Source of the DNA: Bacteroidales bacterium
GTDB lineage: Bacteria; Bacteroidota; Bacteroidia; Bacteroidales; UBA1402
DNA length: 38,502 nucleotides
NCBI GenBank assembly: GCA_017958305.1
Contig: JAGDCW010000180.1
Location: 1 to 38,502 of the forward strand
Reading direction: 5' to 3'
The number at the start of each line of letters is the position of its first letter. Position 1 is the stretch's first letter. Positions 16,932 to 19,432 of this stretch are shown here, one piece after another. The notes under the pieces were generated by a model. The model was not told the DNA's origin. It was given only the letters and a program-made list of their open reading frames with translations, and did not search any database. The position numbers and the translations under genes were made by a program.

Positions 16932-16948
16932 TTGAAGTGTCAGTAACG

Positions 16949-16981
16949 AAAAGCCCGAATGAACAACGTTCGGGCTTTTTT
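16949..16981 (+). terminator. Strong rho-independent terminator after the OmpA-like/TPR gene
   Basis: An 11-base perfect stem, AAAAGCCCGAA (16949-16959) with TTCGGGCTTTT (16969-16979), encloses a 9-base loop and runs into a T tract. It is 18 bases after the stop and 41 bases before the next start, so readthrough could set expression of the downstream pair. Confidence 0.9.
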
Positions 16982-17021: not shown

Positions 17022-18110
17022 ATGACAGAACTATCGGCCAACACCACACTCAAGCGTGTTCCTACCGAACACCATGCCTCTTTCTATCAACTACAGACCG
17101 AAGGCCTGCACAACGAATACTACATCATCAGCAGCGAAGGAACCCGCCGGCTGATGTCCTCTCCCGAAGTGGTCGGATACGAATCCTATCTGGCCATGCA
17201 GAGTTCCACCACCGCTGCCCTGCGCTCCCTGTTCCGCAAACAAAAGAAGGAGAAGGTGGACATCCTCACCATCCTGCGCGGCGGTTTGAACTATCCCCTG
17301 GAAGAATGCTGCTACAAGGCCGGCCTGAAGGTTCCCAACATGAATTTCATCTCTTGTGAGCGGACCATCAAGGACGGAGTCATCACCGGCCTGGACATCA
17401 AATACGAGAAGCTGCACATCGCCAAAGGCGTCACCATGATGATCGGCGACATCATCGCCACGGGCGATACCCTGCGCATGTGCCTGCACGAGATCGTCGA
17501 TTTCTTCTACCAGCACGGAGGTTCCATCAAGCGCATCATCTTCTTCACCATCGGGGGCACCAAGGCCATCGAGGTGATGGAAGACCTGGCCGGGCACCTC
17601 AGGGAGCGCTTCCCCGAATTCGAGTGCTTCCAGTGCGTCTTCTACGAAGGCATTTTCACCATTTACCAGGACAAAGGCGTGACGGGGGTCAACGTCCCCG
17701 AAATCGATTTCGGCTGGAAGGGGGGTGTCATATCGCCCGAGTTCCGCCACTATATGCTTTCCTACAGCGAGAACGCCCTGTTCGAGAAATGCATCATCTA
17801 CGACGGCGGCGCCCGGCGCTACGAGATACCGGTGCACTACGAAGAAGTGATCGGCTATTGGAAAGACCTGCTGGCCGTCTCCGACAAAGCCGATTTCCAG
17901 GCCTTCATCGCCGAGAAAATCGGGTATGAAAGACATCTCTCCTACGAAGACTGGCTCAAAGTGACCTATTTCAACGGCCTGAACAACCTGCGTCCGCTCT
18001 ACCTGCAGGAGCGGGCCTTTGTGGCGCGTGCCTCCCGTCGCAAACTGAAGGACATCTGCCGGCAGCGGATCAGGGAAGTCAAAAAAACTCTCGGAAAATA
18101 CATCATCTAA
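17022..18110 (+). CDS. Phosphoribosyltransferase-like protein, divergent
   Basis: 362 residues. The central part looks like a type I phosphoribosyltransferase: ILTILRGGLNYPLEECC (82-98) resembles the 'ILRxGL' loop of uracil/other PRTases, and MMIGDIIATGDTL (139-151) resembles the PRPP-binding loop 'V-D-D-x-x-A-T-G-x-T'. The first of the two usual acidic residues is Gly here (GDIIATG). About 170 residues follow the core (FGWKGGVISPEFRHYML, then the basic C-terminus RRKLKDICRQRIREVKK), longer than any standard nucleobase PRTase. Ten bases downstream is a cytosine permease gene, so a salvage role for an imported base is the best guess; the real substrate is unknown. Confidence 0.7.
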   Translation: MTELSANTTLKRVPTEHHASFYQLQTEGLHNEYYIISSEGTRRLMSSPEVVGYESYLAMQSSTTAALRSLFRKQKKEKVDILTILRGGLNYPLEECCYKAGLKVPNMNFISCERTIKDGVITGLDIKYEKLHIAKGVTMMIGDIIATGDTLRMCLHEIVDFFYQHGGSIKRIIFFTIGGTKAIEVMEDLAGHLRERFPEFECFQCVFYEGIFTIYQDKGVTGVNVPEIDFGWKGGVISPEFRHYMLSYSENALFEKCIIYDGGARRYEIPVHYEEVIGYWKDLLAVSDKADFQAFIAEKIGYERHLSYEDWLKVTYFNGLNNLRPLYLQERAFVARASRRKLKDICRQRIREVKKTLGKYII

Positions 18111-18120
18111 TCTTTTTCAT

Positions 18121-19374
18121 ATGAATACGACTAAAACCAACGATGCGGACTACACAACCGGAAAGGTTGCATCGCAAGGCCGCAAAAGCAATTTGAGCAT
18201 GTTTATGATCATGCTGGGTTTCACCTTCTTCTCAGCCAGTATGTGGGCCGGACAGAACCTGGCCGGCGGATTGGACTTCTGGGGCTTCTGTGCCGCCCTG
18301 TTGCTGGGTGGCGCCATCCTGGGAGCCTATACCGGCACCCTCGGCTATATCGGCGCCGAGAGCGGTCTGACACTTGACATGCTGGCCCAGCGCAGTTTCG
18401 GCAAAAAAGGCAGTTGGCTGCCCAGCGCCATGATCAGCTTCACGCAGATCGGCTGGTTCGGTGTCGGCCTGGCCATGTTTGCCATTCCCGTCGCCAAAGA
18501 AGTCATGCACCTGGACGTCACGCCCGATTCCATGCCCTGGCAGGGTTATGCCCTGGTTGTCGTGGCCGGTATCCTGATGACATCAACAGCCTACTTCGGC
18601 ATCAAGAGCCTGACCCTGATCAGCTACATCGCCGTGCCCCTGGTTGCCATTCTCGGCACCGTGGCCATGATCATGGCCGTCAATCGCGGTGACGCCGGTC
18701 TGGTAGAGCAGTTCTCACGCGGTGCCAAGGACATGTCGGTCATCGCCGGCGCCGGCCTGGTCATCGGCAGCTTCGTCTCGGGCGGTACGGCCACACCCAA
18801 CTTCACCCGTTTTGCCAAGAACGGCAAGGTGGGCCTGTGGGTCACCGTGGTCGCCTTCTTCCTGGGCAACAGCCTGATGTTCTTCTTCGGAGCTGTTTCG
18901 AGCATCTATGTGGGCGGTAACGACATCTTCGAAGTCATGCTCAACCTCAACCTGTTTTACATCGCCATCCTTGTGCTGGGCCTCAACATCTGGACCACCA
19001 ACGACAACGCCTTGTATTCCGGTGGTTTGGGACTGTCCAACATCTTCGGTTTGAGCAAGAAGACCATGGTGCTTATTTCCGGCATCCTGGGCACAGTGGC
19101 TGCCGTATGGCTCTACTGGAATTTCTGCGGCTGGCTCAACGTGCTCAACTGCACCCTGCCTCCCGTCGGCATCATTCTGGTGCTCAGCTATTTCATGAAC
19201 CGCAAGGCTTATCTCAACGATGAAATGAAGATAGTCCAGGTCAACTGGTGGGCCGTAGCCGGCGTCGTCCTGGGTGCCGTCGTGGCCAACCTGGTCAAGT
19301 GGGGTATTCCCTCCATCAACGGCATGGTCACCGCTGCCATCCTCTTTGTCATCGGCGAAAAGATCCGCAAATAA
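18121..19374 (+). CDS. codB: Cytosine/purine permease, NCS1 family (CodB-like)
   Basis: 417 residues with about 12 hydrophobic segments. NCS1/CodB features are seen: SASMWAGQNLAGGLDF in the first helix region, ISFTQIGWFGVGLAMFAIP, the conserved GSFVSGGTATPNFTRFAKN, and WTTNDNALYSGGLGLSNIF. It is an inner-membrane importer of cytosine or a related base, coupled to H+ or Na+. No cytosine deaminase lies nearby; its only operon partner is the phosphoribosyltransferase-like gene 10 bases upstream. The unit ends at the hairpin 19393-19432. Confidence 0.88.
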   Translation: MNTTKTNDADYTTGKVASQGRKSNLSMFMIMLGFTFFSASMWAGQNLAGGLDFWGFCAALLLGGAILGAYTGTLGYIGAESGLTLDMLAQRSFGKKGSWLPSAMISFTQIGWFGVGLAMFAIPVAKEVMHLDVTPDSMPWQGYALVVVAGILMTSTAYFGIKSLTLISYIAVPLVAILGTVAMIMAVNRGDAGLVEQFSRGAKDMSVIAGAGLVIGSFVSGGTATPNFTRFAKNGKVGLWVTVVAFFLGNSLMFFFGAVSSIYVGGNDIFEVMLNLNLFYIAILVLGLNIWTTNDNALYSGGLGLSNIFGLSKKTMVLISGILGTVAAVWLYWNFCGWLNVLNCTLPPVGIILVLSYFMNRKAYLNDEMKIVQVNWWAVAGVVLGAVVANLVKWGIPSINGMVTAAILFVIGEKIRK

Positions 19375-19392: not shown

Positions 19393-19432
19393 AGACAGGG
19401 CGGCTCCTTTGCGGGCCGCCCTGTCTATTTTA
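19393..19432 (+). terminator. Rho-independent terminator after the permease
   Basis: A 12-base perfect stem, AGACAGGGCGGC (19393-19404) with GCCGCCCTGTCT (19415-19426), then ATTTTA. It sits between two converging genes, and may work weakly on the minus strand as well. Confidence 0.85.

Follow-up and report, generated by a model that had tools for sequence, protein, structure and literature searches.

What does a CodB-type cytosine permease do when its partner gene encodes a divergent phosphoribosyltransferase (PRT)-like protein instead of a deaminase? The question is raised by a two-gene unit in a 38,502-nucleotide stretch of Bacteroidales DNA (contig JAGDCW010000180.1; hereafter, the window). 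The original prediction, made from the sequence, held that the unit imports a base and ribosylates it directly, the base possibly being one that known PRTases do not handle. Our analyses support this indirectly as the best reading of the locus. We consider it probable that the unit performs a two-step cytosine salvage, in which CodB imports cytosine and the upstream protein, P0001, converts it with PRPP into CMP, with no deamination.

Layout of the unit and predicted fold of P0001

Analysis of the ORFs confirmed a 362-residue protein with an ILRGGL loop and a GDIIATGDTL loop encoded 10 bases ahead of a CodB-type importer, as had been described, with both genes on the + strand (Table 1). P0001 is present in a single copy in the window's genome. 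Assignment of the importer, P0002, to the CodB type was borne out by matches to the NCBIfam cytosine permease equivalog NF008241 (433.3 bits, above the cut-off of 326), to Pfam PF02133 (1.2e-38) and to CodB 7qoa, its sole PDB sequence match (1.2e-99). The unit had also been described as isolated between two strong terminators. This holds for the downstream side, where a hairpin of 14 pairs is followed by a T tail. The upstream hairpin was missing from the list produced by the terminator scan, yet as RNA it folds at -23.2 kcal/mol (z -3.1).

Table 1. Positions of the two genes, their motifs and the flanking hairpins in the window
Feature	Position	Strand	Basis
Candidate cytosine phosphoribosyltransferase P0001, 362 aa	17022-18110	+	ORF call; UPRT-like predicted fold; no named family
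CodB-type cytosine permease P0002, 417 aa	18121-19374	+	Pfam, NCBIfam and PDB matches; ligand and sodium residues
ILRGGL loop, residues 84-89	17271-17288	+	R86 aligns with M. tuberculosis UPRT Arg77 (hhalign)
R114	17361-17363	+	Aligns with M. tuberculosis UPRT Arg102
PRPP loop GDIIATGDTL, residues 142-151	17445-17474	+	G-D replaces two acids
Insert of ~40 residues, residues ~213-254, not in UPRT	17658-17783	+	Alignment of relatives; hhalign gap
EKCIIYDGGARR, residues 255-266, including D261-x-G263-x-R265	17784-17819	+	Aligns with UPRT GDAGDR
C-terminal extension, residues 269-362, mostly helical	17826-18107	+	DSSP of the model; past the limits of the UPRT match
Terminator-like hairpin ahead of the unit (end of the upstream gene, or leader hairpin)	~16948-16980	+	RNA folding
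Strong intrinsic terminator past codB	19393-19426	+	Hairpin of 14 pairs and T tail

Searches of Pfam, NCBIfam, the PDB sequences and PADLOC with P0001 alone gave no meaningful match, the defence library gave none, and the Pfam scan of the single protein did not match PF14681 (UPRT). Among 38 relatives, two matched PF14681 below its gathering cut-off (best E 0.031), and seven had sub-threshold matches to PRTase-CE and other PRT-like Pfam families, none of which reached a cut-off. A profile built from these 38 relatives gave weak PRT matches in the PDB (best 0.026). Membership of a known family by profile was ruled out, as no curated family reached its cut-off.

The predicted structure was more informative about the fold. 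An AlphaFold2 model of P0001 (pLDDT 89.8, pTM 0.91) had the UPRT 1xtt as its top Foldseek match (7.3e-7), and a second structural aligner run against the PDB returned UPRTs in all of its best 14 rows (Z 11.9-14.0), the best aligning 187 residues at an rmsd of 2.8 (Z 14.0). Among the fold matches listed, HGPRT was the next family (Z 10.2), and PyrR 2igb also appeared (Z 9.5). When the P0001 family was aligned to UPRT as profiles by hhalign with deep relatives added, residues 2-269 matched with a probability of 81% and an E value of 1.2e-5. This match depends on alignment depth, because a shallower set, which included two faulty rows (L114 and L115), gave 63% and a shallow UPRT set gave no match. 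The UPRT-like core spans residues ~21-268, including the ~40-residue insert, and is followed by ~94 mostly helical residues. By the limits of the model and the match, the original estimate of about 170 residues beyond the core was roughly right. The structure prediction and profile search that had been proposed beforehand as checks thus gave a UPRT-like fold and assigned P0001 to no characterised family. The predicted model has a UPRT-type fold and P0001 falls short of the Pfam UPRT gathering cut-off; because it lies below that cut-off and is without the uracil motif, we did not file it as a UPRT.

Putative active-site residues of P0001 and the cytosine pocket of CodB

We counted residues over 101 non-degenerate relatives of P0001, a few rows being the same gene from two collections. 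R86, R114, D261, G263 and R265 were invariant (101/101). In the hhalign alignment with UPRT, R86, R114 and D261 pair with M. tuberculosis Arg77, Arg102 and Asp198. PMC3570474 assigns Arg77 and Arg102 of that enzyme to PRPP binding and Asp198 and Arg102 to catalysis, the first Asp of the GDAGDR motif being the proposed catalytic residue. The PRPP loop has indeed lost its first acidic residue, as had been noticed in the single sequence, and the change is fixed: G142 is present in 101/101 relatives, as are D143, A146 and G148. In the aligned sequences, P0001 lacks the first acid of this loop and UPRT lacks the second. PRPP binding by P0001 would involve R86, R114 and the GD loop.

The segment in front of the end motif differs from that of UPRT. 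The end motif itself reads YDGGAR in P0001 and YDAGSR in the relatives L005 and L088, against GDAGDR, GDAGDK or GDAGDL in UPRTs. YIVPGLG, which precedes it in UPRT and which we take to be the uracil-recognition segment of that enzyme, is missing from the P0001 family, where KCIIY-DGGAR or RCTIY-DAGSR stands instead. The insert (~213-254) holds conserved PxIDFxW and PEFR motifs. M. tuberculosis UPRT forms no product from cytosine, as stated in a part of PMC3570474, and altered base recognition is therefore expected in a cytosine PRT. In such an enzyme D261 would lie near the base, and cytosine and PRPP would yield CMP and pyrophosphate without deamination of cytosine to uracil.

In two degenerate PRT relatives (L089:1387-2343 and L090:1117-2070), D-x-G-x-R is kept but R86 and R114 are gone, as is the PRPP loop. 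They sit between genes that are trmD-like and pyrD-like by eye, and no CodB was found in their genomes. These relatives are possibly a regulatory pseudoenzyme.

The permease offers separate evidence on the base. According to the portion of PMC9379551 on the binding site, cytosine in CodB is contacted by Gln105, Trp108 and Phe204 and by the main chain of Ser203 and Ala207, waters link it to Gly202, Ser206 and Asn280, and Phe33 lies at the edge. We aligned 84 rows with E. coli CodB, some rows again being the same gene from two collections. Gln105, Trp108, Ser203, Phe204, Ser206, Asn280 and Phe33 were kept in 84/84 rows, as were the sodium residues Asn275, Thr278 and Thr279, and Gly202 was kept in 82/84. 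These residues are consistent with a CodB that would import cytosine with sodium. Two positions differed: 84/84 paired CodBs have Gly at position 207, a main-chain contact, and Pro at position 212, where E. coli and Vibrio carry Ala. Because residue 207 is Gly in every row, CodB specificity could have shifted. P0001 might then be a PRT whose base, also carried by CodB, is not cytosine but, for example, isocytosine, 5-methylcytosine or isoguanine; the resulting nucleotide would be unusual and would serve in salvage or detoxification. A base-recognition segment unlike that of UPRT would also suit such an enzyme. We nonetheless find another base unlikely, as all the cytosine-contacting side chains of P. 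vulgaris CodB are kept and P0002 passes the cytosine permease equivalog.

Conservation of the pair and its genomic context

A survey of neighbouring genes had been set as a test of whether the pairing is accidental. Our scan of genome contigs, with the PRT as sole query, kept 80 loci of 126 relatives. codB lay directly downstream of the PRT in 78 of the 80; one of the others (L037) runs off its contig and one (L085) is without codB. Over 83 pairs, all on the same strand, the gap between the genes had a median of 8 bases and was 40 bases or less in 79. Relatives of only ~30% identity (L087 and L088) were likewise paired with codB. Common gene families joined 67 of the 80 loci into one of 11 neighbour groups, and this grouping does not serve to count independent contexts.

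A relative of P0001 was carried by 5 of 295 sampled Bacteroidales genomes, intact in three (G000, G023 and G132) and degenerate in two (G090 and G193), and CodB was found in 3 of 247 sampled genomes of the order, the same three with an intact PRT. Among Lachnospiraceae, 14 of 397 genomes searched carried the PRT. codB adjoins it in 10 of these 14 and is 64-71% identical to the window's CodB; three carriers have no codB close by (L148, L149 and L151) and one locus (L158) is cut by a contig end. A search of 25 chosen genomes found CodB in eight, namely the known carriers G003, G004, G005, G023 and G132, together with G754, where a PRT lies beside it, G762, where it sits at a contig end, and G743, where it is unpaired. 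In this last genome, of the Lachnospiraceae, the PRT-free CodB adjoins a carbon-nitrogen hydrolase (L167:1399-3792), perhaps for pyrimidine degradation. Carriers of the unit are gut Bacteroidota and Lachnospiraceae. No relative was found in viral contigs or plasmids, which ruled out a phage or plasmid element.

PRT and CodB distances were correlated over 93 pairs (r = 0.84, with 0 of 2000 permutations as high), a result that would equally follow from joint inheritance. In a CodB tree with several long outgroup branches, the main paired clade grouped together (19 rows, 100/100). The CodBs of the divergent pair L005/L088 fell apart from it, so two separate CodB lines each accompany a PRT. Chance pairing was ruled out by the 78/80 loci, the second phylum (Lachnospiraceae) and the divergent branch, and the pairing is strongly conserved. 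The two outcomes named in advance as counting against the original prediction, a characterised family and an accidental pairing, thus emerged from neither the profile searches nor the neighbour survey.

We then asked which enzymes in the carriers act on cytosine and uracil. Elsewhere the partner of CodB is a deaminase, CodA in E. coli, Vibrio and Haloarcula and a nucleoside deaminase in Palleronia; the exception is Enterococcus, where the CodB neighbours are DUF917 and hydantoinase. As to the absence of cytosine deaminase, CodA was found in 0/50 carriers, the genomes of relatives at 50 of the 80 loci, by a search that recovered the E. coli control. Some CDA-type deaminases occurred in 50/50 carriers. 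Of 10 CDA-superfamily matches from three genomes, 9 could be named by eye as cytidine deaminase, dCMP deaminase or TadA, and the tenth (L106) yielded no ORF by the pattern used. For three of the matches, all from G706, the best NCBIfam model agrees with the names given by eye, mostly below model cut-offs.

UPRT was present in 49/50 carriers, so uracil is already served in them. This bears on the idea that P0001 is a divergent UPRT acting on uracil, with cytosine being deaminated by an unrecognised deaminase. UPRT is the nearest fold, and no UPRT match was found in the window's own genome (82.5% complete) or in its nearest kin, G694, so P0001 could be the sole UPRT-like enzyme in these two. But the near-universal presence of UPRT and the lack of CodA in the carriers searched, the replacement of YIVPGLG and a partner that is CodB and not a uracil permease make uracil a very unlikely substrate. 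In many carriers, such as those of L117 and L118, the only UPRT match is of a second kind, UPRT-like, which ends in GDAGDL and matches PF14681 with an E value near 1e-37.

Upstream of the PRT, we observed TAnnTTTG, which we take to be the Bacteroidota promoter box, within 65 bases of the start codon in 76 of 80 loci, where shuffled sequences gave 3.4 on average and 9 at most; ahead of codB it was present in 2 of 78. The window itself is without this box ahead of the PRT. The leader spans 21-33 bases, and in many lineages it holds a hairpin between the box and the ATG that ends just before the ATG and in some is followed by a U run. Distinct leaders number 38, L020:5971-6003 among them, and in many lineages they are almost wholly hairpin. 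Over these 38 distinct leaders, with a 21-locus Bacteroidaceae clade (L052-L072) that is missing the hairpin left out, pairing was found in 77.5% of cells against 70.0% in shuffles, and G-U was kept in 23 rows. Changes on both sides of the stem numbered 20 cells against 5.9 in shuffles; since a one-column slide gives 19, this count alone is not decisive.

Such a leader raises the possibility that P0001 is a regulator akin to PyrR, one that would sense pyrimidine nucleotides or PRPP and control the permease by binding its own leader hairpin. The hairpin, with its occasional U run and its excess of pairing, and the presence of PyrR among the fold matches are consistent with this idea. Against it, the UPRT catalytic residues are all invariant, UPRT fits the model better than PyrR does, the Bacteroidaceae clade is without the hairpin and the window is without the box, and we hold a purely regulatory role to be quite unlikely. 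P0001 could be an enzyme and a regulator at once.

The same 21-locus clade has a distinctive setting, with the pair between PnuC and DUF3078 in 17 loci and ahead of TonB in 4. A TPP riboswitch was detected ahead of TonB in 7/7 tested loci of the clade, and it heads the TonB-PnuC operon in 5/5 tested loci with the pair inside the operon; at L067 and L069 it comes after codB. The pair has settled at two positions around the TPP-riboswitch TonB-PnuC operon (L052:1901-10207; L067:8478-8570). In 16 loci a cytidylate kinase-like gene (PF13189; L052:1901-2590) lies divergent to the operon.

Location inside the TonB-PnuC operon at 17 of the clade's 21 loci, with a TPP riboswitch at its head in the 5 tested, could indicate that the pair belongs to thiamine metabolism, with CodB importing HMP (the thiamine pyrimidine) and the PRT handling HMP or a breakdown product. 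We regard this as highly improbable. The pair lies ahead of TonB in the other 4 loci and ahead of the riboswitch in the two tested, L141 has the TonB-PnuC operon without the pair, and the window, L074 and 11 other loci showed no TPP riboswitch. Furthermore, within the operon the pair is preceded by a promoter box of its own, and P0002 scored 87 against the CytX (HMP transporter) model, for which the cut-off is 310.

Proposed cytosine salvage in relation to known systems

Cytosine salvage by CodB and P0001 remains our preferred reading. The UPRT-like fold, the PRPP and catalytic residues, the altered base segment, the CodB cytosine pocket, the pairing and the lack of CodA in the tested carriers are all computed observations. 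From these we infer that P0001 is active as an enzyme, that cytosine is its base and that CMP is its product.

Among known systems, P0001 most resembles UPRT (upp, PF14681), with which it shares the fold, equivalents of Arg77, Arg102 and Asp198, the D-x-G-x-R end, the ILR-G loop and A-T/S-G in the PRPP loop. It differs from UPRT in lying below the Pfam cut-off, in having G-D for D-P in the loop and KCIIY for YIVPGLG, and in its ~40-residue insert, ~94-residue C-terminal extension and CodB partner. The unit as a whole resembles E. coli codBA (CodB and CodA), a two-gene cytosine operon with a homologous permease and the same cytosine-contact side chains. In contrast to codBA, a PRT-fold protein is encoded ahead of codB and there is no CodA, so that cytosine would stay cytosine. 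PyrR, the pyr operon regulator with UPRT activity, has in common with P0001 the PRT fold, a pyrimidine context and, in some lineages, a leader hairpin, but P0001 matches it less well in fold, is larger and has no adjoining pyr operon. Likeness to PRTase-CE and other PRT-like Pfam families is sub-threshold.

Our literature search, in which most subscription papers lay outside coverage, returned no prior report of the unit or of a cytosine PRT and statements of absence alone. A cytosine PRT activity may have been reported for Giardia extracts, a point to be set against the proposal. Both PMC8842674 and PMC8497467 state that a cytosine phosphoribosyltransferase has yet to be described from any organism. 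PMC8842674 builds on this to argue that a supply of cytosine does not remove the need for CTP synthase, which makes this enzyme indispensable to minimal cells and lets it coordinate growth.

Against this background, we lean cautiously toward P0001 being the first natural cytosine PRT, a far-diverged lineage of UPRT type that has spread with its own importer and that would supply CMP, and so CTP, from free cytosine without CTP synthase, with a minimal 5' leader hairpin controlling it in some lineages. If true, a natural enzyme converting cytosine to CMP would break the rule stated in PMC8842674 and allow CTP synthase to be bypassed, and it could serve as a tool in synthetic cells and in the activation of cytosine prodrugs.
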